DNA of 64,000 nucleotides from Arenicola marina (Eukaryota > Annelida > Polychaeta > Arenicolidae). Positions 152 to 58,081 of this stretch are shown in pieces. The position numbers and the translations under genes are program-made. Positions within the stretch are counted from its first letter, which is position 1. Every line of letters begins with the position of its first letter. The stretch covers positions 42,314,811 through 42,378,810 of the forward strand of contig OZ025255.1 of NCBI GenBank assembly GCA_964019135.1, in the 5' to 3' direction. The notes under the pieces are model-generated. The model was not told the origin of the DNA. It ran no database searches and saw only the letters and a program-made list of their open reading frames with translations.

Positions 152-3107
152 TGCCGCATTTTGATGACGTTTAACTCACCTCATCTTCGTCCTCGGAAGG
201 CAGTGACGTTTAAACTCACCTCATCTGGGTCCTCGAAAGGCAGTGACGTTTAACTCACCTCATCTCCGTCCTCGGAAGGCAGTGACGTTTAACTCACCTC
301 ATCTCCGTCCTCGGAAGGCAGTGACGTTAACCCACCTCATCTGGGTCCTCGGAAGGCAGTGACGTTTAACTCACCTCATCCGGGTCCTCGAAAGGCAGTG
401 ACGTTTAACTCACCTCATCTGGGTCCTCGGAAGGCAGTGACGTTTAACTCACCTCATCTCCGTCCTCGGAAGGCAGTGACGTTAACCCACCTCATCTGGG
501 TCCTCGGAAGGCAGTGACGTTTAAGTCACCTCATCTGGGTCCTCGAAAGGCAGTGACGTTTAACTCACCTCATCTGGGTCCTCGGAAGGCAGTGACGTTT
601 AACTCACCTCATCTCCATCCTCGGAAGGCAGTGACGTTTAACTCACCTCATCTGGGTCCTCGGAAGGCAGTGACGTTTAACTCACCTCATCTGGGTCCTC
701 GAAAGGCAGTGACGTTTAACTCACCTCATCTGGGTCCTCGGAAGGCAGTGACGTTTAACTCACCTCATCTGGGTCCTCGGAAGGCAGTGACGTTTTTAAC
801 CCGCCTCATCTGGGTCCTCGGAAGGCAGTGACGTTAACCCACCTCATCTGGGTCCTCGGAAGGCAGTGACGTTTAACTCACCTCATCCGGGTCCTCGAAA
901 GGCAGTGACGTTTAACTCACCTCATCTGGGTCCTCGGAAGGCAGTGACGTTTAACTCACCTCATCTCCGTCCTCGGAAGGCAGTGACGTTAACCCACCTC
1001 ATCTGGGTCCTCGGAAGGCAGTGACGTTTAAGTCACCTCATCTGGGTCCTCGAAAGGCAGTGACGTTTAACTCACCTCATCTGGGTCCTCGGAGGGCAGT
1101 GACGTTTAACTCACCTCATCTCCATCCTCGGAAGGCAGTGACGTTTAACTCACCTCATCTGGGTCCTCGGAAGGCAGTGACGTTTAACTCACCTCATCTG
1201 GATCCTCGAAAGGCAGTGACGTTTAACTCACCTCATCTGGGTCCTCGGAAGGCAGTGACGTTTAACTCACCTCATCTGGGTCCTCGGAAGGCAGTGACGT
1301 TTTTAACCCGCCTCATCTGGGTCCTCGGAAGGCAGTGACGTTTAACTCACCTCATCTGGGTCCTCGAAAGGCAGTGACGTTTAACTCACCTCATCTGGGT
1401 CCTCGGAAGGCAGTGACGTTTAACTCACCTCATCTCCGTCCTCGGAAGGCAGTGACGTTAACCCACCTCATCTGGGTCCTCGGAAGGCAGTGACGTTTAA
1501 CTCACCTCATCTGGGTCCTCTGAAGGCAGTGACGTTTAACCCACCGCATCTGGGTCCTCGGAAGGCAGTGACGTTTAACTCACCTCACCTGGGTCCTCGG
1601 AAGGCAGTGACGTTTAACTCACCTCATCTGGGTCCTCGGAAGGCAGTGACGTTTTTAACCCGCCTCATCTGGGTCCTCGGAAGGCAGTGACGTTTAACTC
1701 ACCTCATCTCCATCCTCGGAAGGCAGTGACGTTTAACTCACCTCATCTGGGTCCTCGGAAGGCAGTGACGTTTAACTCACCTCATCTGGGTCCTCGAAAG
1801 GCAGTGACGTTTAACTCACCTCATCTGGGTCCTCGGAAGGCAGTGACGTTTAACTCACCTCATCTGGGTCCTCGGAAGGCAGTGACGTTTTTAACCCGCC
1901 TCATCTGGGTCCTCGGAAGGCAGTGACGTTTAACTCACCTCATCTGGGTCCTCGAAAGGCAGTGACGTTTAACTCACCTCATCTGGGTCCTCGGAAGGCA
2001 GTGACGTTTAACTCACCTCATCTCCGTCCTCGGAAGGCAGTGACGTTAACCCACCTCATCTGGGTCCTCGGAAGGCAGTGACGTTTAACTCACCTCATCT
2101 GGGTCCTCTGAAGGCAGTGACGTTTAACCCACCGCATCTGGGTCCTCGGAAGGCAGTGACGTTTAACTCACCTCACCTGGGTCCTCGGAAGGCAGTGACG
2201 TTTAACTCACCTCATCTGGGTCCTCGGAAGGCAGTGACGTTTTTAACCCGCCTCATCTGGGTCCTCGGAAGGCAGTGACGTTTAACTCACCTCATCTGGG
2301 TCCTCGGAAGGCAGTGACGTTTAACTCACCTCATCTGGGTCCTCGGAAGGCAGCGACGTTTAACTCACCTCATCTCCATCCTCGGAAGGCAGTGACGTTT
2401 AACTCACCTCATCTGGGTCCTCGGAAGGCAGTGACGTTTAACTCACCTCATCTGGGTCCTCGGAAGGCAGTGACGTTTTTAACCCGCCTCATCTGGGTCC
2501 TCGGAAGGCAGTGACGTTTAACTCACCTCATCTGGGTCCTCGGAAGGCAGTGACGTTTAACTCACCTCACCTGGGTCCTCGGAAGGCAGTGACGTTAACC
2601 CACCTCATCTGGGTCCTCGGAAGGCAGTGACGTTTAACTCACCTCATCTGGGTCCTCGAAAGGCAGTGACGTTTAACTCACCTCATCTGGGTCCTCGAAA
2701 GGCAGTGACGTTTAACTCACCTCATCTGGGTCCTCGAAAGGCAGTGACGTTTAACTCACCTCATCTGGGTCCTCGAAAGGCAGTGACGTTTAACTCACCT
2801 CATCTGGGTCCTCGGAAGGCAGTGACGTTTTTAACCCGCCTCATCTGGGTCCTCGGAAGGCAGTGACGTTTAACTCACCTCATCTGGGTCCTCGGAAGGC
2901 AGTGACGTTTAACTCACCTCATCTGGGTCCTCGGGAGGCAGTGACGTTTTTAACCCGCCTCATCTGGGTCCTCGGAAGGCAGTGACGTTTAACTCACCTC
3001 ATCTGGGTCCTCGGAAGGCAGTGACGTTTAACTCACCTCATCTGGGTCCTCGGAAGGCAGTGACGTTTAACTCACCTCATCTTCGTCCTCGGAAGGCAGT
3101 GGCGCGA
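152..3107 (-). repeat. 39-bp minisatellite copied from the MPP10 exon end and its 5' splice site
   Basis: Roughly 75 tandem copies of a 39-bp unit. Read on the minus strand, each unit is about 23 nt matching the end of the MPP10 exon (CTGCCTTCCGAGGA.. ending GATGAG) followed by gtgagttaaacgtca, so every copy holds a consensus donor GAG|gtgagt. Variants differ at a few positions (ctgggtcc, ctccgtcc or ctccatcc on the plus strand), and some units gain two extra t or lose a t. The leftmost copy (about 163-201) keeps the cttcgtcctcg variant seen in the true exon, while inner copies do not. The array occupies the intron after the exon. Bases 1-151 to its left are unique sequence with no gene seen. 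Confidence 0.95.
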
Positions 3108-3934: not shown

Positions 3935-4023
3935 CTGCAAACAAATAAATATACATACAATGATACGCAAAAATACAACACATGTAATTAATCATGAGAG
4001 AGCTCATTTCAATGTCTGATAAA

Positions 4024-4066
4024 CATATATATCATATATAATATATATATATATATATATTTATAT
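4024..4066. repeat. AT microsatellite
   Basis: Nearly pure (AT)n with small interruptions, in the presumed intron or upstream region of the MPP10 gene. Confidence 0.9.
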
Positions 4067-10368: not shown

Positions 10369-10374
10369 TTTATT
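10369..10374 (-). other. Poly(A) signal AATAAA for Ly6 gene A
   Basis: TTTATT on the plus strand reads AATAAA on the minus strand, 312 bp past the stop of the Ly6 gene. A second AATAAA lies at 10324-10319. Either fits the 3' end of that transcript. Confidence 0.4.
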
Positions 10375-10685: not shown

Positions 10686-12739
10686 TCAGCGGAGGCGTGC
10701 CATGACAACCACCGCGCTGAGGACCAAGGTGAAGGTCAGCATGGCGCCATTAAACCGGAAGCTGGTGGCGCTATTGCAGCGATCCGTGTCACAGCAGTCG
10801 TATGAGGAAATGTCTTCAAGGGTCGGGGTGACACAGGCGGCGCTGGCGACCGTGCAGCCTCGCGTGTACGTCGTAAGAATTGACCCAAGACCAAATACAC
10901 TTTGCTGTAAAGGAAACAACCGGTATCAGACCCAATGCGTGTTCTTGCTGGTTTGTGACACATGCATGCATTGTGTTTCTTTATTCCACCCCTGCGTTCT
11001 ACGGTACCAAGCGATATCATCGACCTTGACAAAGACAGATTATAAATTAGCAATAGCATGTTCTCGGCATAGCTTCCTCCAGCGGTGGAATGTGTCCACT
11101 CACTGGTTTTGGTTTAGGTATTACGATACCAATGTTGAATGTCTTTAACCTTGTTGAACAGGTAAAACTTACAAAGCACTGATACGCGACGCCAGTAGTA
11201 CTTTCAGTGGTGTCTGCACCACATTCTTCCACCTCATTCTTTTCCAGATCCGTGGAGCACAGCAGACAGGAGTAGCAGGTCAAAGCGTGCGCCCCGCCTG
11301 ATAAAACAATCAAATAGAACATGGCTTTAAAGCTCATCGTGCAATTAACTCTTTAGCAAATGTTTGCGTCCTTATATGTTTTTAAAATTAAAAACAATTC
11401 TGAGCAATGTAACATATTGTATGACGTAGTACACAAGAAAACTTTACCATCTCACGCGCATTATACCAGTCTAATAACATAATGCACATAATCGGATATG
11501 TGGTATAAATTGGCGATTTTCCCAAATCACGGTTATTTAATATTAAAATTCTCAGTTCACGATCGATGAAAATCGTTGGTCACGACGGTCGGTTAATATC
11601 CCATTCATTCCCTCTTCACGAAATATTATTTTCCTCTTTCCCTGTTCACGGTGAAAGGGAAAACCCATTCCCGAGGAACGGAAATACCCTTGCCCCCCCC
11701 CCCCCCACCTCCCCCATATATACCCTTGTACTATATATATATATACGCTTTTACATGCTGCATATATACCATGGACTTGTATTTATACACTAAGACATTG
11801 AAGACAATGTTTGATGTTAGAAGTGGAAATATTACTGTATAAACACATTTAATGCACATTGTTGACAGAGCTGCCGGGGGTTCCCGATGTAGCCGAATCT
11901 GGGCTTATCGCCAGATGGGGAAATCCCACCCAAGACAAACTCATGGTCTCAATCTATTGCGTAAAACTTTGGAAGATATTGTGCATCCAAATAATTTGCT
12001 CCAGTAATTGTGCGTTAAAAACAGTTACCGGTGAGAAAATATATCTTACTCGCTAATGAATGCCGGTTTAAAATGGTGTTAACATTGCTTGAGGTGCCTG
12101 AGTCGTTCGAAGGTCAATGATTGATCCTTGACGTGTTCAATGACTGTTGTGGTTCTTTCGTCTTCCGCACCCAGGATCGAGGACTCTGGACTCAGGGACT
12201 GTCTCATGAGTATAACATTGCTCATGTTGTACATTTCTCAACTTTATTTTGCGCTCTAGCGGACCACCCCAGTTTTTCGCGGTTAGTCCAGTTTCGGCGC
12301 CGAAAGATACATACGAAACATAAATGTTATTAGATGTTGATCTCCTTTATGGGTTGTGATGGCAGAGGGGGGGCGGGGTGGTAGGGTTGGCGGTCCAGGG
12401 TCATTTGAAATGGCTATTTGACGGTGGAGTGCAGTACAAATCAAGATAAAGGTAAGATATTGGGTTACTATTGCCCTATGAGAAGCTACCTACCCGCTAT
12501 AGTCAGTGATTCAGTTACAGTCACCACTTGCATCTTAAAGCTTACATCTTAAATGCGGCCGCCGTAAACTTTTACTTTGCGACGGTTCAATGAGTTCTTA
12601 TATATACAATTTTAATATAAAATAGCATGTACAATTTCAGTCGTATTGGATAAATTCAAAGCTTTGTCAATACGTCATGTATAGTATACCACTTACCTAG
12701 CATGGCCACTAAGAGTGTCACAATGAGAATGGTGTTCAT
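10686..12739 (-). CDS. Ly6/uPAR-domain GPI-anchored protein (gene A), 3 exons
   Basis: Three coding exons assemble to 128 residues: 12739-12697 (43 nt, signal peptide start, donor G|gtaagt), 11297-11173 (donor ..TGCTTT|gtaagt) and 10904-10686 (after ..tttcctttacag). Intron phases are 1 and 0. The signal peptide starts MNTILIVTLLVAM and should be cut after GGAHA. The mature domain begins LTCYSC and has ten cysteines in three-finger order, ending with the hallmark CCDTDRCN. A hydrophobic tail (AMLTFTLVLSAVVVMARLR) follows, as expected for a GPI-anchor signal. Proteins of this family are extracellular; some (Lynx type) bind nicotinic receptors, others are adhesion or signalling factors, and the ligand here is unknown. 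The ATG at 11337 in front of exon 2 is intronic and not the start. The gene lies head-to-head with Ly6 gene B. Confidence 0.87.
11555..11713. repeat. Dispersed repeat ending in poly(C), copy 1
   Basis: In intron 1 of Ly6 gene A. It shares ordered blocks with 53155-53285: gatgaaaatc/ggaaatcttt, ggtcacgacggtcgg/gatcacgagggtcgg, attattttcctc, gttcacggtgaaa, catt(t)ccgaggaa, then a run of 14 C (11693-11706) and further C-rich sequence. Two copies in one window, in introns of different genes, suggest an interspersed family (SINE- or MITE-like). No terminal inverted repeat or coding capacity was seen. Confidence 0.6.
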
Positions 12740-15690: not shown

Positions 15691-18600
15691 ATGAAAGTGA
15701 TTACTTTCTGTCTCTTTGCAGTGGCAATTGTCGGTACGTGAGGTTTTAAATATACTTGTATTTTCTTGTGGTAATATTGTCGCGAAATCCGTTTATCATA
15801 CATATTTGACCAGAAGTTTGTGAACACATTTTTATCTTTTATGAATTTTGTTCTTCATAAACTTTTCATTTCACGAGTAGAACATATTGTGTTCATTTAA
15901 AGTCGTACATCTTTTATATCATATCTAGTTATATCAAATACGGTGGACGGTGGCTTCCCTGCAGGCTGGATGTGAAGTTAAACGTCAGGCTTACGCTGAT
16001 CCATCGCTTCATAAGCTGGAAACTCTGCTGCAGATTAACCGGCCGTGGGATGGCGCCACCTTACCACTCGCCCAGACAACCACCTTCTTAAGTCACCACT
16101 CGCCAACACAGCCACCTTACTACTCGCCAAGACAGCCACCTTCTTAAGTCACCACTCTCCAACACAGCCACCCTCTTAACTCACCACTCTCCATTACAGC
16201 CACCTTCTTAACTCCCCACTCGCCAACATAGCCACTTTCTTAACTCACCATTCGCCAACACAGCCACCTTCTTAACTCACCACTCGCCAACATAGCCACT
16301 TTGTTAACTCACCACTCGCCAACACAACCACTTTCTTAACTCACCACTCGCCAACACAGCCACCTTCTTAACTCACCGCTCGCCAACATAGCCACTTTCT
16401 TAACTCACCACTCGCAAACCTAGCCACTTTCTTAACTCACCACTCGCCAAGACAACCACCTTCTTAACTCACCACTCGCAAACACAACCACCTTCTTAAG
16501 TCACCACTCGCCAACACAGCCACCTTTTTAACTCACCACTCGCCAACATAGCCACTTTCTTAACTCACCATTCGCCAACACAGCCACCTTCTTAACTCAC
16601 TACTCGCTAACACAACCACTTTCTTAACTCACCACTCGCCAACACAGCCACCTTCTTAACTCACCGCTCGCTAACACAACCACTTTCTTAACTCACCATT
16701 CGCCAACACAGCCACCTTCTTAACTCACCACTCGCTAACACAACCACTTTCTTAACTCACCACTCGCCAACACAGCCACCTTCTTAACTCACCGCTCGCC
16801 AACATAGCCACTTACTTAACTCACCACTCTCCAACATAGCCACCTTCTTAACTCACCACTCTCCAACATAGCCACTTTCTTAACTCACCACTTGCCAACA
16901 CAGCCATCTTCTTAACTCACCACACGCCAAGACAACCACCTTCTCAACTCACCACTCGCCAACAAAACCACCTTCTTAAGTCACCACTCGCCAACACAGC
17001 CACCTTTTTAACTCACCACTCGCCAACATAGCCACTTTCCTAACTCACCACTCGCCAACATAGCCACTTTCTTAACTCACCACTCGCCAAAACAGCCACC
17101 TTCTTAAGTCACCACTCGCCAGCACAGCCACTCTCTTAATTTGCCCACTCGCCAACACAACAACCTTCTTAACTCACCACTCGCCAACACAACAACCTTC
17201 TTAACTCACCACTCGCCAAAACAGCCACCTTCTTAACTCACCGCTCGCCAACATAGCCACTTACTTAACTCACCACACTCCAACATAGCCACTTTCTTAA
17301 CTCACCACTTGCCAACACAGCCACCTTCTTAAGTCACCACACGCCAACATAGCCACTTTCTTAACTCACCACTCGCCAAGACAACCACCTTCTCAACTCA
17401 CCACTCGCCAACACAACCACCTTCTTAAGTCACCACTCGCCAACACAGCCACCTTTTTAACTCACCACTCGCCAACATAGCCACTTTCCTAACTCACCAC
17501 TCGCCAACACAGCCACCTTTTTAACTCACCACTCGCCAACATAGCCACTTTCCTAACTCACCACTCGCCAACATAGCCACCTTCTTAAGTCACCACTCGC
17601 CAGCACAGCCACTCTCTTAATTTGCCCACTCGCCAACACAACAACCTTCCTAACTCACCATTCGCCAACACAACAACCTTCTTAACTCACCACTCGCCAA
17701 AACAGCCACCTTCTTAAGTCACCACTCGCCAGCACAGCCACCTTCTTAAGTCACCACACGCGAAAACAGCCACCTTCTTAAGTCACCACTCGCCAAAACA
17801 ACCACCTTCTTAACTCGCCAACAAAGCCATCGTCTTAACTCATCAATTAAAAACGTTTGTTTCTTGATGTCCCCAGGCTACACCACGGCTACCAAATGCT
17901 ATTCCTGCAGCGACCTGCTTAACGACTTCTGCGAGGAGACGTTCGGCACTGTCTCAGACAAGACTTTATATACCATAGAATGCAGCGGACAGTGCTCGGT
18001 AAGAACATAGAATACAGCGGGCAGTGCTCGGTAAGTCCATAGAATACAGTGGGCAGTGCTCGGTAAGCCCATAGAATACAGCGGGCAGTGCTCGGTAAGC
18101 CCATAGAATACAGTGGGCAGTGCTCGGTAAGCCCATAGAATACAGCGGGCAGTGCTCGGTAAGCCCATAGAATACAGCGGGCAGTGCTCGGTAAGCCCAT
18201 AGAATACAGTGGGCCGTGCTCGGTAAGTCCATAGAATACAGCGGGCCGTGCTCGGTAAGCCCATAGAATACAGCGGGCAGTGCTCGGTAAGCCCATAGAA
18301 TACAGCGGGCAGTGCTCGGTAAGCCCATAGAATACAGTGGGCCGTGCTCGGTAAGTCCATAGAATACAGCGGGCCGTGCTCGGTAAGTCCATAGAATACA
18401 GCGGGCAGCGCTCGGTAAGCCCATAGAATACAGCGGGCAGTGCTCGGTAAGCCCATAGAATACAGTGGGCCGTGCTCGGTAAGTCCATAGAATACAGTGG
18501 GCCGTGCTCGGTAAGAACATAGAATACAGCGGGCAGTGCTCGGTAAACCCATAGAATACAGCGGGCAGTGCTCGGTAAGCCCATAGAATACAGCGGGCAG

Positions 18601-21200
18601 TGCTCGGTAAGTCCATAGAATACAGTGGGCAGTGCTCGGTAAGTCCATAGAATACAGTGGGCAGTGCTCGGTAAGCCCATAGAATACAGTGGGCAATGCT
18701 CGGTAAGCCCATAGAATACAGTGGGCCGTGCTCGGTAAGGACATAGAATACAGCGGGCAGTGCTCGGTAAACCCATAGAATACAGCGGGCAGTGCTCGGT
18801 AAGCCCATAGAATACAGCGGGCAGTGCTCGGTAAGTCCATAGAATACAGCAGGCAGTGCTCGGTAAGCCCAAAGAATACAGTGGGCCGTGCTCGGTAAGT
18901 CCATAGAATACAGCGGGCAGTGGTCGGTTAGCCCATAGAATACAGCGGGCAGTGCTCAGTAAGTTCATAGAATACAGCGGGCAGTGGTCGGTAAGCCCAT
19001 AGAATACAGCGGGCAGTGGTCGGTAAGCCCATAGAATACAGTGGGCAGTGCTCAGTAAGTTCATAGAATACAGCGGGCAGTGGTCGGTAAGCCCATAGAA
19101 TACAGCGGGCAGTGCTCGGTAAGCCCATAGAATACAGCGGGCAGTGTAGGTAAGTCCATAGAATACAGTGGGCAATGCTCGGTAAGTCCATATAATACAG
19201 TGGGCAGTGCTCGGTAAGTCTATAGAATACAGCGGTCAGTGCTCGGTAAGCCTATAGAATACAGTGGGCAGTGCTCGGTAAGCCCATAGAATACAGTGGG
19301 CAGTGCTCGGTAAGCCTATAGAATACAGCGGGCAGTGCTCGGTAAGCCCATAGAATACAGCGGTCAGTGCTCGGTAAGCCTATAGAATACAGTGGGCAGT
19401 GCTCGGTAAGCCCATAGAATACAGTGGGCAGTGCTCGGTAAGCCTATAGAATACAGTGGGCAGTGCTCGGCAAGCCTATAGAATACAGCGGGCAGTGCTC
19501 GGTAAGCCCATAGAATACAGTGGGCAATGCTCGGCAAGTCGTCCATATAATACAGTGGGCAGTGCTCGGTAAGCCTATAGAATACAGTGGGCAGTGCTCG
19601 GTAAGCCTATAGAATACAGCGGGCAGTGCTCGGTAAGCCCATAGAATACAGTGGGCAGTGCTCGGTAAGCCTATAGAATACAGTGGGCAGTGCTCGGTAA
19701 GCCTATAGAATACAGCGGGCAGTGCTCGGTAAGCCCATAGAATACAGTGGGCAATGCTCGGCAAGTCGTCCATATAATACAGTGGGCAGTGCTCGGTAAG
19801 CCCACAGAATACAGCGGGCAGTGCTCGGTAAGCCCATAGAATACAGCGGGCAGTGCTCGGTAAGCCTATAGAATACAGTGGGCAGTCCTCGCTAAGCCCA
19901 TGGAATACAACGGGCAGTGCCCGGCAAGTCCATAGAATACAGCGGGCAGTGCTCGGTAAGTCCATAGAATACAGCAGGCAGTGCTCGGTAAGCCCAAAGA
20001 ATACAGTGGGCAATGCTCGGTAAGCCCAAAGAATACAGCGGGCAGTGCTCGGTAAGCCCAAAGAATACGGCGGGCAGTGCTCGGTAAGCCCAAAGAATAC
20101 AGTGGGTAGTGCTCGGTAAGTCCATAGAATACAGCGGGCAGTGCTCGGTAAGCCCATAGATACAGTGGGCAGTGCTCGGTAAGCCTATAGATACAGTGGG
20201 CAGTGCTCGGTAAGCCCATAGCAAACAGCGGGCAGTGCTCCGTAAGCCCATAGAATACAGTGGGCAGTGCTCGGTAAGCCTATAGAATACAGTGGGCAGT
20301 GCTCGGTAAGCCTATAGAATACAGTGGGCAGTGCTCGGTAAGCCTATAGAATACAGCGGGCAGTGCTCGGTAAGCCTATAGAATACAGTGGGCAGTGCTC
20401 GGTAAGCCTATAGAATACAGTGGGCAGTGCTCGGTAAGCCCGTAGAAAACAGCGGGCAGTGCTCGGTAAGCCTGTAGAATACAGTGGGCAGTGCTCGGTA
20501 AGCCCATGGAATACAACGGGCAGTGCTCGGTAAGCCCAAAGAATACAGCGGGCAGTGCTCGGTAAGCCCAAAGAATACAGTGGGCAGTGCTCGGTAAGCC
20601 CATAGAATAGAGCGGACAGTGCTCGGTAAGCCCATAGAATAGAGCGGGCAGTGCTCGGTAAGCCCAAAGAATACAGCGGGCAGTGCTCGGTAAGCCCAAA
20701 GAATACAGCGGGCAATGCTCGGTAAGCCCATAGAATACAGCGGGCAGTGCTCGTTAAGCACATCCAATACAGCGGGCAGCGCTCGGTAAGGCCAAAGAAT
20801 ACAGCGGGCAGTGGTCGGTAAGCCCATAGAATACAGCGGGCAGTGCTCGGTCAGCCCATAGAATACAGCGGGCAGTGCTCGGTAAGAACATAAAACTTCA
20901 TTTCCGTAACAATGCTCCGGGCACTTTTGCGGTAAAAAGTGATAAAAACATGTCATAATTTAATCAGTGATTTTATTTTCTTCTCAACAGAAAACCCGTA
21001 CTGATAGCGGTGTGTCCACTATCTGGACCAGGTCGTGCTCCCCAGCATGCAATGAGGGGGATTTCTACGTCGGGAGCGTGGGTACCGCCACCTACTGCTG
21101 CAGTGGAGATTACTGCAACGCCGCCACCAGCGTCCGCGTCGCCATGACAACCATGATCATCGGGGCAACGCTTTCGCTGTTCTTTGCGCGTCTTCGTTAA
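15691..21200 (+). CDS. Ly6/uPAR-domain GPI-anchored protein (gene B), 3 exons
   Basis: Exons 15691-15733 (43 nt, MKVITFCLFAVAIV, donor G|gtacgt), 17877-17998 (after ..gatgtccccag, donor TGCTCG|gtaaga) and 20991-21200 (after ..ttcttctcaacag) assemble to 124 residues with intron phases 1 and 0, the same as gene A. The mature domain begins around TKCYSC and has ten cysteines in three-finger order, ending CCSGDYCN. A hydrophobic C-terminus (MTTMIIGATLSLFFARLR) follows, as in GPI-anchored Ly6 proteins. Both proteins end in ARLR, and they differ strongly in the finger loops, so they are diverged paralogues. Intron 1 carries a 32-bp array unrelated to the exons. Intron 2 is almost wholly an array of exon 2's own 3' end with its donor. 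Expected location is the outer cell surface; the ligand is unknown. Confidence 0.88.
16049..17830. repeat. 32-bp minisatellite in intron 1 of Ly6 gene B
   Basis: About 55 copies of a 32-bp unit with core cgccaacacagccac then cttcttaactcaccact. It is unrelated to the flanking exons on the plus strand. On the minus strand each unit reads GTGGTGAGTTAAG, so it contains a consensus-like 5' splice site facing the opposite way. No exon matching the unit was found next to either end. Common variants are agcc/aacc, cacag/catag and ttaact/ttaagt. Confidence 0.93.
17972..20890 (+). repeat. 32-bp minisatellite copied from exon 2 end plus donor of Ly6 gene B
   Basis: About 90 copies. The unit is gtaag followed by 27 nt matching the last 27 nt of exon 2 (exon: ..CATAGAATGCAGCGGACAG.. 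then TGCTCG; array: catagaatacagcgggcag then tgctcg). Each copy thus ends in a donor TCG|gtaag. The first copy after the exon and the final copy before unique intron both read gtaagaacata, whereas internal copies read gtaagccca, gtaagtcca or gtaagccta. The period is kept over 2.9 kb with only a few short indels. ORFs through the array are by-products. Confidence 0.95.
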
Positions 21201-40014: not shown

Positions 40015-40455
40015 CTCGGCATTAAGAGTAATGTATCCCTATTTGTCTCCGTAACATACATATAAAGTGATTGATGAACCATAACCGCGCATGGATCATG
40101 TGCATGACCTTGACCTTGACCTATTACGACCATATCCCAACCACTACCGTGGCCTTAGGTTTTGACATCCACACTTTTCGGTATTTTGTCAACACCACAC
40201 GTTCCTCGCGCTTTGTGACATTTGGCAAAAACAAAAGCCACGGACAGAATAATATCCACCGTAATAAAAAAATAACCCTGGCAATGTGTTTTACGTCTGA
40301 TGGGAAAGCGTACGTAATGAAGGGGCCGGGGGCTGGGGGACGGCTCAGCTTATTGTGTACCTACTGAAGTGTGGCCCTCCGGGGAAATTGTCACCACCAG
40401 TCCCTCCAACCCAGCCTCTGTTTTATTATGGTCATCCGATGGCAAAACTGACATC
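40015..40455. other. No gene seen between two arrays
   Basis: Unique sequence with a short tgaccttgacc motif near 40105. A 98-codon ORF here has no recognisable domain. Confidence 0.55.
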
Positions 40456-47275: not shown

Positions 47276-47351
47276 ATGGCGGCGCTCGTTGCCCTGTTGC
47301 TTGTTTGGCTGCAGGGAGTATCCACGGCGGCGGAAGGTAAATCCAGCAAAG
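47276..47351 (+). CDS. nAChR exon 1: signal peptide
   Basis: Encodes MAALVALLLVWLQGVSTAAE and GKSSK, ending with one base of a split codon at AAAG|gtaagt. An alternative in-phase donor, GAAG|gtaaat, lies 15 nt upstream (after 47336), so a form five residues shorter at the mature N-terminus is possible. Confidence 0.85.
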
Positions 47352-50300
47352 GTAAGTCACGTGGTGCGGTCCAATTTACAGGTAGGAAGGGGACAAACAT
47401 GATACCATGACAACAATGATACACATGTATTTGACCAGGACTCAACTTCCGGTGTGTTTGTAAGAATTGTTTGTTTCACGAGGTTATCAACGTTGACAGA
47501 CACATGCGAATGGCCACCTCACCTAAGTTTTGAATGTAAAGGTAAAAATAACACTGCAAGTAATCTCATTGTGGCTGAACAAAAACGATATTTGTAAAGG
47601 CTGTCCAAGACCGGATGTGTGTGCAGCGTGTGGTGTCGCTATTCCGATGAGAGTGCTGCATGGGGCGACATACTGTGATCTCCCCTCCCCCTCTGGGACT
47701 ATTACTAAGCCCCGTATCATAGCACACGGTCATAACACGGTCATAATAGTTGTGGGTTGTTTTGTCCCCGTCGAATCCCCGGCCGTACGTGCCCTGACCT
47801 TTGACCTTATTTCTCTGTGACGTCACGCAGATCTACGTAATGAGCTCCAGAAGACGTTGTTTGCGGATTACGATTCCGAGCTGCTGCCTCACTGTAACGG
47901 GACAACACTTCCGGTTAAAGTGTCTCTGGATATCTCGCTCAGAGGAATTCTGGATGTGGTACGTTACTATGATAACCGGTGCTGTGGTTAGCGATTCAAA
48001 TGTCAGAATCATTTTTGTCAAAAGGAAAAACATTTCACACTTAAAAGCCCTAAATGTCCAATATTTATCTTTTTCTTCATGCGTAGTGCCTTCTTCCTTT
48101 TTCATATTCTTCACTTCTTCTGTTACTATTCTGTTTCTCTCTTCCTCTGTCTCTAGCATGTTCCTCATTTTCTCTGTTTATACCATAGGCTGGAGTGGCT
48201 CGTTCGCAACCATGTTCTCTGTTTATACCATAGGCTGGAGTGGCTCGTTCGCAACCATGTTCTCTGTTTATACCATAGGCTGGAGTGGCTCGTTCTCAAC
48301 CATGTTCTTCACTTCCTGTCTCCACACGGTTCTTCACTTCCTGTCTCCACACTGTTCTTCACTTCCTGTTTCTACACTGTTCTTTACTTCATTTACCTCG
48401 ACCTGTTCTTGCTTTCTTCTCTCTCTACCTTATTCTGTTTTTGTTTGCTCTTTCTCTCTCTCTTTTTGTTTCACCGTAACAAAGTCACACATCAAATGAA
48501 ACCATCATATCACATAAATGGGTGCCACTTAGATATAAAGGATAACATGTTTTCACCATCGCTGATGCACAGTTCTATTTTAAAATAAAACAAAATAGTG
48601 TTCTGGACCCCCTGGAGATTAGGGATTTCATTAAGCCATTTACATCTAAAAACATATCTCTTCGTAATTAAACAAATATGATTAATAAGTCGCTCATGCG
48701 ATGAGTGTTCTAACCTTAATAAACAGGATTGACGCGTTGGAGTCAGATATGTCAAGCATATGTCATTTAACCAATCAAATACCCTGAACCATAAACTTAC
48801 ATGAATACAATCAAAAAGTAAGTGCTGCATAGTTTCAGCCTCAGTCCCACAAAAAGAACATTTCTCCGAGTCTATGATTTTACACTGATGCAAAAACTGA
48901 TTTGTGACCAATGCTAAATTCAGTAACAGGAACTGAAAGCTTCTGTTTTTTCTTAAATCGTACAGTGCAGATGTACAACTGTAGCTTAAAGACTTGACAG
49001 CTTAAAGCTTAAAGACAGTAACTTATAACTATAAGTGTATGAAACGCGCCGTTCTTCTTATTAAAGTCGCCCACTCGCGAGTTAAGTTACCTAGTTTTTT
49101 ACCTCACGTCATTACTTAGTGTCTCCAGTCTCGCGGTATGCAGCGGACAAGACTATAGAAATCAACAAAGTTAATATTTGTTTGATATTTCTTTCTAAAT
49201 TCTTCCCATCCTAACAGGACGCCATGTTCATCAAGTATATCATTAATAAAGACAACTCCCTTCGTGACAATTTCGTCTCTTCTGCTATTCAGATTTGGGT
49301 TTTTCATAAAATAGGTATTCCAAATTGGATATTCTAAAACATTAATATGTTCATTTTGTGTTCCCAAGAATTTTCTCCATGCCTTAAAGACACCCCAAAA
49401 AGGGGTTTGATGTCAAAGAGAATTCATTCAGAGAAATGGCATCTAAGTCCCAACATAATATAGGTATTCCAAATTGGATATTCTAAAACATTAATATGTT
49501 CATTTTGTGTTCCCAAGAATTTTCTCCATGCCTTAAAGACACCCCAAAAAGGGGTTTGATGTCAAAGAGAATTCATTTAGAGAAATGGCATCTAAGTCCC
49601 AACATAATATTTTATCACTACAAATAATTTTACAAAACAATTGCTGCCACGCCCCATCATTTAGTACGAGTCTTCGTATCCAACTAATTTTGAGTGCGAA
49701 CATCATAGAGTCTATGCGAGGGAAGCTAATGCCCCCAAGATCGACTGATTGTACCATTTTAGACATGGCAACTCTAGGTTTATTTTTATTCCACACGAAT
49801 TCCCGAGTTAGACGATTAATTATGTTCAGATAATATTTACCAGGTATAGGCAGAACAGACAAAACGCGCATTAGTTTAGGCAGAGCGATACCCTTTACTA
49901 CAGTACTTCTACCTCTTAAGGACAAATTTCGCCTGCTACACACAACGAATACACCTTCAAATTGCGCTAGCACGCGACTCTAATTACTACCAACCATAAC
50001 TCTCACATTAACATTAAACTTCATACCGAGTAAAGTAAACTCCTCAGACCCAGTAAAATTTAGATCGGTACATAGGGTTTGGCGATCTTTAGTAATTATG
50101 CCTAAGCAGACAGCTTTAGTTTTATCAACATTTACTTACAAACGGGACATTTTTTTGAACATTTCCAGAACCCGTAATGCATTTTTAATACTCTTCGCTT
50201 CCGTCTAGCAACAAAAAAGTGTCATCTGCGTATGGTCCTATTTTAAACTCTTGGTCCAAGATTTGTATACCCTTAATTGATTTGTCATTTTTTATAAACG

Positions 50301-53300
50301 TAGCCAGTGGTTCAATAGACAAAATAAATAAATACGGTGACAGTGGATCACCCTGTCTACAGCCGCGCCCTAATGAAAAAAACTGGGAAAAAACACCGTT
50401 GTTTATAACACAACTGCAGACATCCTTATAAAGTATTCTAATCCAATTAATAAAAGATATACCAAGACCGTTCGTATCTACCACGTTATCCACATAATTC
50501 ATTACAGTGGTGCCATGTCCACCGATTTCACGAATTACCAGTGGTGCCATGTCCATCCATTAAACAACATTACAGTGGTGCCATGTCCACCGATTTCACG
50601 AATTACCAGTGGTGCCATGTCCATCCATTAAACAACATTACAGTGGTGCCATGTCCACCGATTTCACGAATTACCAGTGGTGCCATGTCCATCCATTAAA
50701 CAACATTACAGTGGTGCCATGTCCATCCATTAAACAACATTACAGTGGTGTAATGTCCACCGACTAATGCCCTGAACGTCCTGTTTTAATCCTTCTGGGG
50801 AACGGGCAGCCAGGCCTCTTGGGCACACTCAGTTATTGTTGACATAATACAGCTCTGTTGTTTTTGTTATAGGATGAGCCCCGCCAAGTGGTTACCGCAG
50901 CCGTCTGGCTCAGATGGGTAGGTCTGCTTGTGTTTGTCTCCATGTCTACATACGTCGGTCTGTCGCACTGTCATGGCAAGAGTGTCTCTGTCACCACCCA
51001 GTAGCAAACAACCATATTCCCTTAGGATGCAACAGTGGTACGATACATACCAGATACGATTGTGCCCCAGGTACGATTCGACCTCAACCAGCGAACGAAT
51101 GATGCTTGAAATCCTGTTTTTTATGCGGCAATGGAACGTGGTTTTCAACTTAAGCAAAACTCAGCCAATTATCTTGTAATTAAGAGTGAAATATAGTTTA
51201 CCTCTCGTAGGAGAACTTATCTCTGTCCTTGGCAGTTATGAAGTTTTCGAATTTTGCTAAAGGAAATTTCTTGCTCTTGTCGAAGCTATAATTCCTATTC
51301 AAGGGAAAAACATTTTCAAGGCGTTTTTGGCCTATATCCGTTTTAATATAATTCTGGAATGACTTTTTCTAACCGAAAACAGACTATGCCCCCTCCCCCC
51401 CCCCCTCCTCCTCTTTTCACCGTTTCCTTGTCATGACTGAACGTATCCTTCCGTCCTGCTCACTGTCAACCCATACTACCCTTAGTATGGCAATTGAGCG
51501 CCTGAAGTGCACTGAAAACCACTTTTGACACTCAATCTCGACTTTCGTTCAGTCATTTTATGTCCCTCAGATTTCTCCCCAAACTAGCTTCTTGATCTTC
51601 GAAGCATACGTTGCGCACACATAAAGTTGCACGTCCGTTGACATCATTTTGACATAAGCACCTAGTCGGGCCGAAAACCTCAAAACTAAGACATATTAAT
51701 ATACTAGCATATCTTTCTGGATACAGACGTGGCAGGACTGCCGCCTGACCTGGAATCCGGATAGCCACCAAGACCAGAAGACCTTGATCCTGCCATTTGA
51801 TCGCTTTTGGATCCCGGACATCACTCTCTACGACAGGTGACGTATGTCCACTTCTGGATCCCGGACATCACTCTCTACGACAGGTGAAGTATGTCCACTT
51901 CTGGATCCCGGACATCAATCTCTACGACAGGTGACGTATGTCCACTTCTGGATCCCGGACATCACTCTCTACGACAGGTGGACAGGTAACGTATGTCCAC
52001 TTCTGGATCCCGGACATCACTCTCTACGACAGGTGACGTATGTCCACTTCTGGATCCCGGACATCACTCTCTACGACAGGTGACGTATGTCCACTTCTGG
52101 ATCCCGGACATCACTCTCTACGACAGGTGACGTATGTCCACTTCTGGATCCCGGACATCACTCTCTACGACAGGTCACGCATGTCTACTTCTGGACCCCG
52201 GACATCACTCTCTACGACAGGCGACGTATGTCCACTTCTGGATCCCGGACATCACTCTCTACTACAGGTGACGTATGTCCACTTCTGGATCCCGGACATC
52301 ACTCTCTACGACAGGTGATGTATGTCCACTTCTGGATCCCGGACATCACTCTCTACTACAGGTGACGTATGTCCTCTTCTGGATTCCCGGACATCACTCT
52401 CTACGACAGGTGACGTATGTCCACTTCTGGATCCCGGACATCACTCTCTACGACAGGTGACGTATGTCCACTTCTGGATCCCGGACATCACTCTCTACGA
52501 CAGGTGACGTATGTCGACTTCTGGATCCCAGACATGACGTATGTCCACATCGGACACCCGTGATATAGTCTGTGCATTGTTGCACAAGTGGCACCTTGTC
52601 TCACCGTTGCAGATTTCTTGGCGAGCGGCTGTGTCAAGACAATGCAAGATAAATTTAAATGGTTCTCGTCACTAGAAGGCAGCCAGATACAAACAGTAAT
52701 CGAGTCAGGTGAGAACCATTTTTCGCGAATTAAACTCACGGCAGGAAGCAATCGCCTGCTCCAGGAACAGAACCGTAAACGTTATGACGGGCGTCTGGTA
52801 TGGTAAGCTAATCCAACCCCTGGCGGTAAACGTTATGACTACTAGTGCCACCATTTGTCAATATATGTGTTTGTGGCCTTAACGCTGCGTGTTCACGTAT
52901 CTCAGTCGTCCATAGCACAGTGGGTAGCGCATTGACCTGCAGAGCTGCACATCGCCTCTCTGTGCCCCCCCAGCATGTATCACCTACATATAGGGGGGGG
53001 GGGGGTCATGTTTCCAGATCACGAATCAAACAGTTCTTTAATCACAGTTCACGGTGAATTAAAAGACGAACTCCCTGCATACAATAATGATGGCGGATAT
53101 ATTATATAAAATGGCGGTTTCCATATTTCCGATTATTTAAAAATCAGTCGACAATAAATGGAAATCTTTGATCACGAGGGTCGGCTAATGCCTAATTCCC
53201 AGTTCACGAGGAATTATTTTCCTCATTCCCAGTTCACGGTGAAATTAAAAGCTCATTTCCGAGGAATCCCCCCCCCCCCTCCCCCAAAAAAAAATTACCC

Positions 53301-56300
53301 GCCGTTCCAGCCATCGCCCTGGTTAATACAATGTGAACACACATTCATTCCCCTCTCAGACATATATTCATGAAATCCCCCCTTTCAGCAGTACGGGAGG
53401 CTACTTCGAAGGAGTGGACAAGTTCCGACCGGTGCTGAATGCCTCGGGGTCGATCACCCTGATGGCACCGGTCATCCTCACCTTCACCTGCAAGATGGAC
53501 ATCACTTACTTCCCTCTGGACCTGCAGCGATGCCCCCTCAAGTTTGCCTCCTGGTCACATACCGGCGCGGACATCGACGTCGTCAACCTGCGAACATCCG
53601 GGGACCTGACCAACTACGCCGACAACGGCGAGTGGGCGCTGATAGGGCTACCGGCGCGCCGCCTGGAGGAGAAGTACCCGTGCTGCGAGGATCCATTCCC
53701 CGCGGTCATCTTTACGCTCATCTTCCGGCGTCAGAGTCTGTACTACTTCTTCAACCTGGTCATGCCCTGTATTCTCATCTCGGCCATCTCCACCCTGGTG
53801 TTCTACCTGCCGCCCGAGAGCGGGGAGAAGGTGTCCCTGGGGATCACAGTGCTGCTGTCTCTCTGTGTCTTCATGTTGATGGTGTCCGAGAGAATGCCGG
53901 CCACGTCAGACACCGTGCCTCTCATTGGTAAGTCGTCAGACACCGCGCCTCTCATTGGTAACTCGTCAGACACCGTGCCTCTCATTCGTAAGTCGTCAAA
54001 CACCGTGCCTCTCATTGGTATGTCGTCAGACACCGTGCCTCTCATTGGTAAGTCGTCAGACACCGTGCCTCTCATTGGTAAGTCGTCAGACACCGCGCCT
54101 CTCATTGGTAACTCGTCAGACACCGTGCCTCTCATTGGTAAGTCGTCAGACACCGCGCCTTTCACTGGTATGTCGTCAGACACCGTGCCTCTCATTGGTA
54201 AGTCGTCAGACACCGTGCCTCTCATTGGTAAGTCGTCAAACACCGTGCCTCTCATTGGTAAGTTGTCAGACACCAAGCCTCTCATTGGTTAGTCGCCAGA
54301 CACCGTGCCTCTCATTGGTAAGTCGTCAAACACCGTGCCTCTCATTGGTAACTCGTCAGACATCGTGTCTCTCATTGGTAAGTCGTCAGACACCGTGCCT
54401 CTCATTGGTAACTCGTCAGACACCGTGCCTCTCATTGGTAAGTCGTCTGATACCGTGCCTCTCATTGGTAAGTCGTCAGACACCGTGCCTCTCATTGGTA
54501 AGTCGTCTGATACAGTGCCTCTCATTGGTAAGTCGTCAGACACCGTGCCTCTCATTGGTAAATCGTCTGATACCGTGCCTCTCATTGGTAAGTCGTCAGA
54601 CACCGTGCCTCTCATTGGTAACTCGTCAGACACCGTGCCTCTCATTGGTAAGTCGTCAGACACCGTGCCTCTCATTGGTAAGTCGTCAAACACCGCGCCT
54701 TTCACTGGTATGTCGTCAGACACCGTGCCTCTCATTGGTAAGTCGTCAGACACCGCGCCTTTCACTGGTATGTCGTCAGACACCGTGCCTCTCATTGGTA
54801 ACTCGTCAGACATCGTGCCTCTCATTGGTAAGTCGTCAAACACCGTGCCTCTCATTGGTAACTCGTCAGACATCGTGCCTCTCATTGGTAAGTCGTCAGA
54901 CACCGTGCCTCTCATTGGTAACTCGTCAGACACCGTGCCTCCCATTGGTAAGTCGTCTGATACCGTGCCTCTCATTGGTAAGTCGTCAGACACCGTGCCT
55001 GTCATTGGTAACTCGTCAGACACCGTGCCTCTCATTGGTAAGTCGTCAGACACCGTGCCTCTCATTGGTAAGTCGTCAAACACCGCGCCTTTCACTGGTA
55101 TGTCGTCAGACACCGTGCCTCTCATTGGTAAGTCGTCAAACACCGCGCCTTTCACTGGTATGTCGTCAGACACCGTGCCTCTCATTGGTAAGTCGTCAGA
55201 CACCGTGCCTCTCATTGGTAAGTCGTCAGACACCGTGCCTCTCATTGGTAAGTCGTCAGACACCGTGCCTCTCATTGGTAAGTCGTCTGATACCGTGCCT
55301 CTCATTGGTAAGTCGTCTGATACCGTGCCTCTCATTGGTAAGTCGTCTGATACCGTGCCTCTCATTGGTAAGTCGTCTGATACCGTGCCTCTCATTGGTA
55401 AGTCGTCTGATACCGTGCCTCTCATTGGTAAGTCGTCAGATACCGTGCCTCTCATTGGTAAGTCGTCAGACACCGTGCCTCTCATTGGTAAGTCGTCAGA
55501 TACCGCGCCTCTCATTGGTAAGTCGTCAGATACCGTGCCTTTCATTGGCAACCGTTCCATAGTCATCCCTCAGTTGGGAAATTTTCTCGTAACAAATAGT
55601 TAAAATGGTAATAAGCTTACTGATTTTGATTCTCTGTTATTTTAACGCTGAAAATATATAAATAAATATAATTATTAATAAATACGTGCTAGTGAAAAAA
55701 TTATATCATTGATGTTCATCTAGAACTTGACATCTGACCTCTGACCTCTGACCTCTGACCTCTGACAGCGCAGTACTTCGCCGCCATCATTATCCTGGTG
55801 ACGTGTTCCTGCCTGCTGACGGTGGTGACGCTGCACGTGCACCACAAGGGTGCGGGGGGTCTGGAGGTGCCCGAGTGGATCAAGGTCGTGGTGCTCGACT
55901 GGCTGGGGGTGCTCACCTACCGGCACAGCCTCCGCTTCCAGGAGAGGAAACAGGTCAGCCAACGCTGAGGAGGGAGGGGGGGAGGGAGCGGGGGGTGGGG
56001 GTGCTCACCTACCGGCACAGCCTCCGCTACCAGGAGAGGAAACAGGTCAGCCAACGCTGAGGGGGGAGGGAGGGGGGGGGGTGCTCACCTACCGGCACAG
56101 CTTCCGCTACCAGAAGAGGAAACAGGTCAGCCAACGCTGAGGGGGGGGGGAGGGAACGGGGGGTGGGGGTGCTCACCTACCGGCACAGCCTCCGCTACCA
56201 GGAGAGGAAACAGGTCAGCCAACGCTGAGGGGGGGGAGGGAGCGGGGGGTGGGGGTGCTCACCTACCGGCACAGCCTCCGATACCAGAAGAGGAAACAGG

Positions 56301-58081
56301 TGAGCCAACGCTGAAAGGGGAGGGAGGGGGGGGGGGGTGCTCACCTACCGGCACAGCTTCCGCTACCAGAAGAGGAAACAGGTCAGCCAACGCTGAGGGG
56401 GGACCGGGGGGAGGGGGGGTGCTCACCTACCGGCACAGCCTCCGCTACCAGGAGAGGAAACAGGTCAGCCAAAGCTGAGAGGGGAGGGAGGGGGGGGGGG
56501 GTGTGCTTACCTACCGGCACAGCTTCCGCTACCAGAAGAGGAAACAGGTCAGCCAACGCTGAGGGGGGAGGGAGGGGGGGGGGTGCTCACCTACCGGCAC
56601 AGCCTCCGCTACTAAGAGAGGAAACGGGTCAGACAACGCTGATGGGTGGAGGGAGTGGGGTGGGTTTGGGAGGACGGGGTGCTGGTTTTACGTTTTACGT
56701 AAGCCTCCGCTACCAGGAGAGGAAACAGGTCAGCCAAAGCTGAGGGGGGACCGGGGGGAGGGGGGGGTGCTCACCTACCGGCACAGCCTCCGCTACCAGG
56801 AGAGGAAACAGGTCAGCCAACGCTGAGGGGGGGAGGGAGCGGGGGTGGGGGGTGCTCACCTACCGGCACAGCCTCCGCTACCAGGAGAGGAAACAGGTCA
56901 GCCAAAGCTGAGGGGGGACCGGGGGGAGGGGGGGTGCTCACCTACCGGCACAGCCTCCGCTACCAGGAGAGGAAACAGGTCAGCCAACGCTGAGGGCGGG
57001 AGGGAGCGGGGGTGGGGGTGCTCACCTACCGGCACAGCCTCCGCTACCAGGAGAGGAAACAGGTCAGCCAAAGCTGAGAGGGGAGGGAGGGGGGGAGGGG
57101 TGCTTACCTACCGGCACAGCTTCCGCTACCAGAAGAGGAAACAGGTCAGCCAACGCTGAGGGGGGCGGGAGGGGGGGTGGTGCTCACCTACCGGCACAGC
57201 TTCCGCTACTAAGAGAGGAAACAGGTCAGACAACGCTGATGGGTGGAGGGAGTGGGGTGGGTTTGGGAGGACGGGGTGCTGGTTTTACGTGCATCATTCA
57301 GTGATATGCTGGGTGGGTGAGATGGGGGGAGGGGGGGGGGGGCTACGTGGTGGATGTAAATGGTGAGCAGCATGTAGATGTTGGTGTAAATGATCACTTG
57401 ATTGAAGTTACTTAAGTAGAATACAAGGTACATGAAAAAAATATCCAGTAAATAAATAGATTACTTAGTCCAAACTAAGTTAACAAACTCAAACTTAATG
57501 TTAACTGAAATCAGTGAAGCATACATCTCAGTTACAGACTAATGATTGTACTTAGACGTAACCCACATGACCAACATAACGTCCGTATCCAGATTGATGA
57601 GGGCCCCCTAGACACCAACAACCACAACGCTCCGGACGTGGACACCAACAGCTGCGAGTTCCGGAGATCAGGACGCCGGTCACGTGAGTCGGCCAGCCGG
57701 AAGTCCTTTCACGGCCGAGTGTCTCGCCACAGCTCCAGACAACACCAGCGGTGGGACCCCTTCAACGGGGGATTCGGCCTTGACCTCGATCCCGAAGGCG
57801 ACTGCGACCGGACGAAAAAGGACTCGGGAAATGACGTGGACGGGAAGATAGTTCGGAGCCTGCTGGCCAAGCAGGTAGCGAGTCTGCGAGAGATTGAGGA
57901 CTGTTTTGAAGGTCAGGAGAATGACCTGAGGGTGGCGCTCGAGTGGCGCCGCGTGGCCATGGTTCTCGATCGGTTCTTCCTCGTCGTTATGTTCATCGGG
58001 AACATCGTCGCCAGCTCCGTCATCCTGCTGCAGCGCCCCCCAGCGATGGACCTGGAAATCGAAGGCTTGTCATCTAGATGA
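47276..58081 (+). CDS. Nicotinic acetylcholine receptor subunit, alpha type, 7 exons
   Basis: Complete gene for a cation channel subunit of the Cys-loop family (plasma membrane, pentameric, gated by acetylcholine). Exons are 47276-47351, 47831-47958, 50873-50917, 51727-51836, 53389-53927, 55769-55953 and 57593-58081. They sum to 1572 nt with all phases consistent, giving 523 residues. Features are a signal peptide (about 1-20), glycosylation site NGT in the first exon-2 strand, loop A WIPDITLYD (111-119), Cys-loop C154-C168 with 13 residues between, loop B Trp175, and vicinal cysteines 218-219 marking an alpha subunit. M1 is about 237-260 and M2 about 266-287. M2 has the GEK entry and so is cation selective. 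M3 is about 301-324, then a 160-residue cytoplasmic loop and M4 about 484-506. Exons 3 (45 nt) and 4 (110 nt) have the sizes typical of vertebrate subunit genes. I cannot assign the exact subtype. Introns 4, 5 and 6 each carry a minisatellite made from the preceding exon's end. Confidence 0.92.
47831..47958 (+). CDS. nAChR exon 2: start of ligand-binding domain
   Basis: After acceptor ..gtcacgcag. Encodes LRNELQKTLFADYDSELLPH, then CNGTTLPVKVSLDISLRGIL, typical of the N-terminal helix and first strand of nicotinic subunits. Ends CTGGATGTG|gtacgt, phase 0. Confidence 0.9.
48165..48390 (+). repeat. Small tandem repeats in nAChR intron 2
   Basis: Three near-identical 45-bp copies (ctctgtttataccataggct then ggagtggctcgttc..) at about 48168-48305, followed directly by about four copies of a 24-bp unit (gttcttcacttcctgtctcc then acac). 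Neither matches an adjacent exon. Confidence 0.85.
49311..49608. repeat. 149-bp tandem duplication inside the LINE
   Basis: 49311-49459 and 49460-49608 are almost identical (for example attcattcag versus attcatttag), splitting the LINE's C-terminal coding region. Low divergence shows the duplication is much younger than the LINE insertion. Confidence 0.93.
50500..50767. repeat. 68-bp tandem repeat at the truncated 5' end of the LINE
   Basis: About 3.5-4 copies of a 68-bp unit (cattacagtggtgccatgtc then caccgatttcacg..) at 50500, 50568, 50636 and 50704 (last one partial). The first copy overlaps LINE coding sequence (minus strand GGHGTTVM), so the array grew from the LINE edge. Within each unit cagtggtgccatgtcca occurs twice. 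Confidence 0.9.
50873..50917 (+). CDS. nAChR exon 3 (45 nt)
   Basis: After ..tttttgttatag. Encodes DEPRQVVTAAVWLRW, equivalent to DEKNQ...TNVWLRQ of other nicotinic subunits. Donor TGG|gtaggt. Exactly 45 nt, the usual length of this exon. Confidence 0.9.
51727..51836 (+). CDS. nAChR exon 4 (110 nt)
   Basis: After ..ctggatacag. Encodes TWQDCRLTWNPD through RFWIPDITLYD plus two bases of the next codon. It contains loop A of the acetylcholine site. Donor GACAG|gtgacg, the first of a tandem series of such donors. Confidence 0.9.
51805..52550 (+). repeat. 47-bp minisatellite copied from nAChR exon 4 end plus donor
   Basis: About 15 copies. The unit is gtgacgtatgtccac followed by ttctggatcccggacatcac then tctctacgacag, i.e. 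the last 31-32 nt of exon 4 (coding FWIPDITLYD) plus the first 15 nt of the intron. One copy has an extra 8-nt gtggacag (near 51980), and some read ctactacag for ctacgacag. ORFs repeating HFWIPDITLYDR are echoes of the exon. Confidence 0.95.
52909..52960 (+). repeat. Possible tRNA-derived SINE fragment
   Basis: TAGCACAGTGG is a perfect RNA polymerase III A-box (TRGCNNAGYGG) inside tRNA-like sequence (gtgggtagcgcattgacctg). No matching B-box is found downstream before a G13 run at 52993-53005, so this is at best a partial element. Confidence 0.35.
53155..53285. repeat. Dispersed repeat ending in poly(C), copy 2
   Basis: Matches 11555-11713 block for block and ends in C12 (53268-53279) followed by ctccccc and an A run. 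An additional ttcacggtgaa(a)ttaaaag block occurs just upstream (about 53049-53064), so the family may contain an internal duplication. Located in nAChR intron 4. Confidence 0.6.
53389..53927 (+). CDS. nAChR exon 5: Cys-loop, loop C, M1 and M2
   Basis: Large 539-nt exon after ..ccccctttcag. It encodes the Cys-loop CKMDITYFPLDLQRC, loop C KYPCCEDPF, M1 and the pore-lining M2, ending PATSDTVPLI plus one base at ATTG|gtaagt. The acceptor is cagcag, so a start 3 nt later (53392) is equally possible and would drop one Ser. Confidence 0.93.
53904..55555 (+). repeat. 30-bp minisatellite copied from nAChR exon 5 end plus donor
   Basis: About 54 copies. The unit is exactly gtaagt plus the last 24 nt of exon 5 (cgtcagacaccgtgcctctc then attg). 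It keeps reading frame and has no stop on either strand in most copies, which gives the long ORFs repeating SSDTVPLIGK (plus) and DDLPMRGTVS (minus). The exon 5 frame stays open through the array until a single TAG at 54290-54292. Donor variants are gtaact, gtatgt and gtaaat; GT is kept in almost every copy. Confidence 0.96.
55733..55768 (+). repeat. 7-bp tandem repeat forming the exon 6 acceptor
   Basis: About five copies of ctctgac lead directly into ctctgacag|CGCAG. The polypyrimidine tract and acceptor AG of intron 5 are therefore made from a short tandem repeat. Confidence 0.85.
55769..55953 (+). CDS. nAChR exon 6: M3 and start of cytoplasmic loop
   Basis: Encodes QYFAAIIILVTCSCLLTVVT (M3), then LHVHHKGAGGLEVPEWIKVV and VLDWLGVLTYRHSLRFQERK with a final Q. 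Both ends fit the phases of the neighbouring exons. Donor AAACAG|gtcagc. Confidence 0.92.
55905..57290 (+). repeat. Long-unit minisatellite from nAChR exon 6 end plus donor, G-rich
   Basis: About 16 copies of a variable 70-95-bp unit: about 46 nt of exon 6 end (gtgctcacctaccggcacag then cctccgctaccaggagag..), the donor AACAG|gtcagc, caacgctga and then a G-rich spacer (ggggggagggagcggggg type) of variable length. Exonic parts are nearly invariant (cttccgc/cctccgc, caggag/cagaag), while spacers vary. The last copies are diverged (ctactaagagag, gtcagac). Confidence 0.94.
57593..58081 (+). CDS. nAChR exon 7: cytoplasmic loop, MA helix, M4 and stop
   Basis: After acceptor ..cgtccgtatccag, chosen because it gives the required phase 0; the ATG at 57542 is not a start. 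Encodes a charged, Ser/Arg-rich loop, then an MA-type helix (GQENDLRVALEWRRVAMVLD) and M4 (RFFLVVMFIGNIVASSVILL), ending LSSR and TGA. A further small loop exon between exons 6 and 7 cannot be excluded. Confidence 0.85.
   Translation: MDEGPLDTNNHNAPDVDTNSCEFRRSGRRSRESASRKSFHGRVSRHSSRQHQRWDPFNGGFGLDLDPEGDCDRTKKDSGNDVDGKIVRSLLAKQVASLREIEDCFEGQENDLRVALEWRRVAMVLDRFFLVVMFIGNIVASSVILLQRPPAMDLEIEGLSSR

Follow-up and report, generated by a model that had tools for sequence, protein, structure and literature searches.

Host genes and the arrays at their exon ends

The window, i.e. the whole 64,000-nt stretch of Arenicola marina DNA analysed here, contains four modelled genes, MPP10, the paralogs Ly6A and Ly6B, and an alpha7-like nAChR gene, as well as five minisatellites, each of which starts within a coding exon and has units that carry a 5' splice site, i.e. 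all five (5/5) span an exon-intron boundary (Table 1). All gene models assume splicing at the first, exon-joined site of each array. The Ly6B protein matches Pfam family TOLIP, a three-finger protein family, above the cut-off (7e-5), and UPAR_LY6 below the cut-off. Intron positions and phases (1 and 0) are equal in Ly6A and Ly6B, and in both genes the second intron lies just after a QC motif; in Ly6A no array lies across the 5' splice site of intron 2, the counterpart of the array-bearing intron 2 of Ly6B. The seven exons of the nAChR gene form an uninterrupted ORF of 523 aa, which is matched by alpha7 chains of the PDB at 6e-93, and in the alignment with PDB alpha7 the join of exons 5 and 6 (VPLI/AQYF) is gap-free, while a one-residue gap lies just after the join of exons 4 and 5. 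The ends of the MPP10 exon and of nAChR exon 6 are based on ORF, phase and splice motif, without homology across the join. Introns 4, 5, and 6 of the nAChR gene start with arrays, introns 1-3 do not.

Table 1. Arrays, host genes and the array-free control gene, with positions in the window
Feature	Position	Strand	Description
Array 1, MPP10 intron	165..3101	-	39-nt unit, ~75 copies; unit = last 26 nt of exon + 13 nt of intron
Array 2, Ly6B intron 2	17973..20886	+	32-nt unit, ~91 copies; unit = last 25 nt of exon 2 + 7 nt of intron
Array 3, nAChR intron 4	51804..52535	+	47-nt unit, ~15 copies (TRF 15.4); unit = last 33 nt of exon 4 + 14 nt of intron
Array 4, nAChR intron 5	53904..55548	+	30-nt unit, ~55 copies (TRF 54.8); unit = last 24 nt of exon 5 + 6 nt of intron
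Array 5, nAChR intron 6	55905..57261	+	units of ~82-92 nt, ~15 copies; unit = last 48 nt of exon 6 + ~44 nt of G-rich intron
MPP10 coding exon	3076..3934	-	bounded by a 3' splice site (3934) and a 5' splice site (after 3076); Pfam Mpp10 4e-23; ORF
Ly6A gene, paralog of Ly6B	10686..12739	-	exons 12739-12697, 11297-11173, 10904-10686; used as array-free control
Ly6B gene	15691..21200	+	exons 15691-15733, 17877-17998, 20991-21200; 124-aa ORF in 3 exons
nAChR alpha7-like gene	47276..58081	+	exons 47276-47351 (or 47336), 47831-47958, 50873-50917, 51727-51836, 53389-53927, 55769-55953, 57593-58081

Among the matches listed, the best named ones for the nAChR protein come from two vestimentiferan annelids, with 43% identity over 94% of the query and 53% over 67%, and Branchiostoma is represented by one named protein (32% identity) among the 120 matches listed of 238. 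In a tree of 42 rows, composed of 41 hand-picked matches and the window protein and to be read as a gene-family tree, not a species tree, the window gene groups with Capitella (on a long branch), Lamellibrachia, and Ridgeia (support 97/94), with a mollusc group adjoining, and not with this Branchiostoma protein. The grouping speaks for an annelid or a near relative as the source, amphioxus being improbable. Searches with the other proteins did not add to this, as none of the 57 matches of MPP10 bore a species name and none of the 63 candidates for Ly6 received a score.

The preliminary description of the sequence had reported five minisatellites built from exon ends and their splice signal, and this observation is confirmed. 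TRF recovers all five, at most a few dozen bases from where they had been placed, as head-to-tail tandem units of minisatellite size with periods of 30-92 nt. When the exon end was aligned to the sequence one period downstream, the repeat was found to begin inside the exon and to cross the 5' splice site in four arrays; for array 5, to which TRF assigns a period of 82 (15.3 copies) or 166 (7.9 copies), the exon end did not align at a lag of 82, the first period being 92 instead. The alignments bear out the proposed composition of the units, with measured portions of 24-48 exon nt and 6-14 intron nt (44 in one array) as compared to the 23-46 and 5-16 nt given before. No sequence common to the five units was noticed beyond the splice motif in a reading by eye, as distinct from a formal comparison.

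For these arrays a parallel had been drawn to the mirages of amphioxus, a name reportedly given by Canestro 2002. The parallel is correct: according to the cited passages, lancelet mirages, described in Adh3, globins, troponin C, and PGBD5, are likewise composed of tandem minisatellite units across an exon/intron boundary, occur at both boundaries, arise by an unclear mechanism, and do not interfere with regular splicing (PMC3087553, PMC3902484). By structure, the five arrays fit the definition of mirages.

The window holds further features. The end of nAChR exon 1 offers a pair of 5' splice sites that lie in the same frame at a distance of 15 nt, 47336 (AAG/gtaaat) and 47351 (AAG/gtaagt), and this twin donor is possibly a two-copy relic. 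In nAChR intron 2, remnants of a LINE-like element with RVT_1 and zf-RVT matches lie on the minus strand (48513-50559), with a 149-nt duplication inside them (49305-49610) and a 34/68-nt array at their edge (50500-50761). Upstream of the nAChR gene, a 42-nt array (42401-46237) contains long open frames on both strands, which probably result from its period being a multiple of 3. The longest array of the window according to TRF, 17.9 kb with a 20-nt unit, lies between Ly6B and the nAChR gene (22106-40015), and an ORF on the minus strand (7001-7408) has a match to OTU protease that narrowly misses the Pfam cut-off (E 2e-4; 22.2 vs 23.3 bits). Intron 1 of Ly6B harbours a 32-nt array (16063-17841) that ends ~36 nt before exon 2; on the plus strand its unit contains a branch-point-like CTTAAC and an acceptor-like end, ACACAG, and on the minus strand a donor-like GTG/gtgagt, whose score on an approximate splice-site matrix is equalled by shuffled units in 16/500 cases.

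Distribution of arrays relative to splice sites

The position of arrays was analysed for those 12 arrays that TRF scores at 300 or higher and for 11 5' and 11 3' splice sites of the four genes, to which MPP10 contributes one site of each kind, from two different introns. Arrays span 5/11 supported 5' splice sites and 0/11 3' splice sites (Fisher one-sided 0.018). When every array is reduced to a single unit and these units are placed randomly in the collapsed sequence of 27,826 nt, only 0.19 of the 12 arrays would be expected to span a supported 5' splice site, as compared to the five observed (P of at least five = 4e-7), and if placement is restricted to the 7,358 nt of non-array intron the expectation is 0.55 (P 4e-5); all these figures describe one window that was chosen for looking striking, and are not a genome estimate.

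Thus, the window shows an enrichment of arrays at 5' splice sites relative to 3' splice sites and other intron positions, and of the interpretation offered in the preliminary description, position as the common factor stands, as does the mirage parallel. Its suggestion of R-loops or G-richness as the shared cause does not, because the GC skew of the units on the coding strand takes both signs (+0.05, +0.11, -0.20, -0.12, and +0.26). Part of the pattern may reflect tolerance, as in all five cases no fewer than the first 6 bases of the intron have remained intact. Incipient duplications were looked for at the six remaining 5' splice sites, and none is evident: self-similarity downstream of these array-free sites amounts to 10-12/20 and lies within the random range (median 10; 17.6% of random cases reach 12), in a test that looked downstream only and had the twin donor 47336/47351 outside its reach.

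Probable seeding, growth and splicing of the arrays

At the five seed junctions the exon at the start of the repeat and the flank at its end share 2 (CA), 4 (CATA), 1 (C), 3 (CGT), and 8 (GGGGTGCT) nt of microhomology, with boundaries set by eye. The sum of 18 was reached by 31/20000 random draws, and the sum of 10 that results without the 8-nt case by 189/20000. The break points hug the splice site, i.e. in 4/5 arrays the unit comprises 24-33 exon nt and 6-14 intron nt, and the geometry of the units is lopsided, the intron part being small but never shorter than 6 nt (P 0.0075 in a post hoc test).

The distribution of variants among units suggests that the arrays grew from inside and that the end units retained older states, since in both MPP10 and Ly6B variants are shared by end units. 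Within the MPP10 array, the variant GACGAAGATGAG of the exon is restricted to the first and last units, and the first intron bases of Ly6B intron 2, gtaagaacata, occur in the first unit, the last unit, and one other. This would resemble the lancelet globin mirage BflGb6, where the ends of the cluster escape homogenisation as stated in the cited part of the report (PMC3087553). A variant of a Cys codon in Ly6B and a TTC variant of nAChR exon 6 are confined to the exon-joined copy, and the last unit in nAChR intron 4 lacks an internal segment; units at the array ends may have been lost or rearranged.

Conservation of the 9-nt splice motif was computed for three arrays, those of MPP10, Ly6B, and nAChR intron 5. 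Its variability is similar to that of the remaining unit, with 26/39, 13/32, and 18/30 windows, respectively, being equally or more conserved, and the conservation rank of the GT dinucleotide is 31/39, 16/32, and 3/30, respectively, GT being kept in 67/76, 85/92, and 54/56 unit rows. As the motif thus varies about as much as the remaining unit, selection on the repeated splice sites is not clearly seen, nAChR intron 5 being the weakest case, and judged from their sequence the copies of the three arrays analysed appear to be passengers. A search against Rfam gave no match at the gathering score.

With an approximate splice-site matrix, the five arrays contain 245 later GT sites that reach a score of 4 or more, 193 of which equal or exceed the first site in strength. 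On the same scale, later sites are stronger than the first in Ly6B (16 sites), nAChR intron 4 (3), and intron 6 (1), i.e. site strength does not explain the assumed choice of the first site. Predicted accessibility favours the first site in four arrays, but not in nAChR intron 5 (16-34 later sites scored per array). If a later copy were spliced, the reading frame would run into a stop in four of the five arrays, those of MPP10, Ly6B, and nAChR introns 4 and 6, whereas nAChR intron 5 stays open for 120 codons and each further copy included there would lengthen the M2-M3 loop by 10 aa. As later copies bring stops, we infer that splicing, if the proteins are made, should follow the order of the sites rather than their strength.

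Origin of the arrays and relation to lancelet mirages

We consider it somewhat more likely than not that the arrays are mirage-type minisatellites that arose from microhomology-mediated tandem duplications across 5' splice sites, expanded internally later on, and are spliced at the first copy. Tolerance alone, to which we grant a minor but real chance, would do without any special process: duplications would be equally frequent everywhere, those across a 5' splice site would survive as the first copy still splices, and those in exons or at 3' splice sites would be harmful. The intron portion of every unit does amount to 6 nt or more, which a surviving first site would require, and none of the 11 3' splice sites is spanned. 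However, intron interiors are tolerant, too, and constitute a far larger target, but hold only 3/8 of the intron-touching arrays with a score of at least 300 (those at 16063, 49305, and 50500) as compared to five at 5' splice sites, where 0.55 would be expected, a count from one window. That the arrays are functional, with repeated 5' splice sites that recruit U1, regulate splicing, or give in-frame isoforms, is improbable; the retention of GT in most copies and the stop-free frame of nAChR intron 5 would fit such a role, but conservation of the splice motif does not clearly exceed that of the remaining unit, later copies introduce stops in the other four cases, and the paralog Ly6A lacks an array.

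Misassembled arrays or wrongly assigned exon ends are very unlikely to account for the findings, for although long arrays are hard to assemble, the four gene models agree with protein homology, and the units differ by many point changes, unlike a copied error. Hardly any weight falls on the idea that the introns themselves were born from duplications of exon sequence containing AG/GT, i.e. intron gain by tandem duplication, a model proposed for lancelet mirages in the cited part of the report (PMC3087553). Ly6B intron 2, the one of the five introns tested for being new at the position of its array, has its position and phase in common with the intron of array-free Ly6A, i.e. no new intron was found there, and the units include intron sequence. 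Moreover, nAChR exons 3 and 4 measure 45 and 110 nt, the same as in vertebrate nAChR genes, so that nAChR intron 4 is probably old.

For the favoured origin by duplication across 5' splice sites, the following scheme may be envisaged. A tandem duplication between short matches, located in the last 24-48 nt of the exon and 6-44 nt into the intron, would double the exon end together with its 5' splice site. Slippage or unequal exchange would then enlarge and homogenise the array internally, with older features being retained in the end units, as the unit patterns of MPP10 and Ly6B support. With the first, exon-joined copy being spliced, the mRNA would remain unchanged and the array would be carried as intron, its later copies representing neutral passengers and potential decoys. 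In the least certain step, the excess at 5' splice sites would result from duplications being seeded there more often than elsewhere in introns, aided by the tolerance of duplications that spare the first 6 intron bases.

Relative to lancelet mirages, the density, the 5' polarity, the number of up to ~91 copies, and the taxon are new. According to the cited passages, amphioxus mirages include 3' boundaries, whereas here 5/5 arrays lie at 5' splice sites (PMC3087553, PMC3902484), and the globin mirage has 3-6 copies of 150-160 nt as compared to ~15-91 copies here (PMC3087553). Unlike in amphioxus, three neighbouring introns of one gene are affected, and this gene groups with those of annelids. 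Excerpts of further amphioxus studies mention exon copies with splice sites inside introns of VCBP genes (PMC2632668) and, without placing them at splice sites, tandem repeats in huntingtin (PMC2206037). Variable internal tandem repeats of human genes in segmental duplications are similar in being minisatellites with a mean unit of 30 nt, some at exon-intron boundaries, but, as the cited part of the source has it, average ~4 copies, occur in recent paralogs, and are linked to novel introns and alternative transcripts (PMC2812944). Intron gain by tandem genomic duplication in potato RdRp also involves a tandem duplication in a coding gene, but the cited excerpt describes a duplication that creates an intron, whereas here it appears to enlarge an existing one (PMC4974935). 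The minisatellites in intron 1 of earthworm metallothionein are both annelid and intronic, but are not described as spanning splice sites in the cited excerpt (PMC12783039). In the literature searched, which mostly excludes subscription journals, no report of splice-site-spanning minisatellites in an annelid was noticed.

The presence of such arrays in an annelid would mean that mirages are not confined to lancelets. Tentatively, and as a possibility rather than an expectation, we speculate that 5' splice sites may be recurrent hot spots for microhomology-mediated tandem duplication in animals outside lancelets, that the closeness of the break points to the splice site would reflect an imprint that transcription or splicing complexes leave on the repair or replication of DNA, and that an intron with ~80 nearly equivalent sites may have its first one picked. 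If 5' splice sites seed tandem duplications, the birthplaces of minisatellites would be steered by gene structure itself. Moreover, arrays of dozens of approximately equal 5' splice sites would constitute a natural experiment on spliceosomal choice between identical sites, in which the first site should be taken, as any later one would lead to stop codons in four of the five cases.
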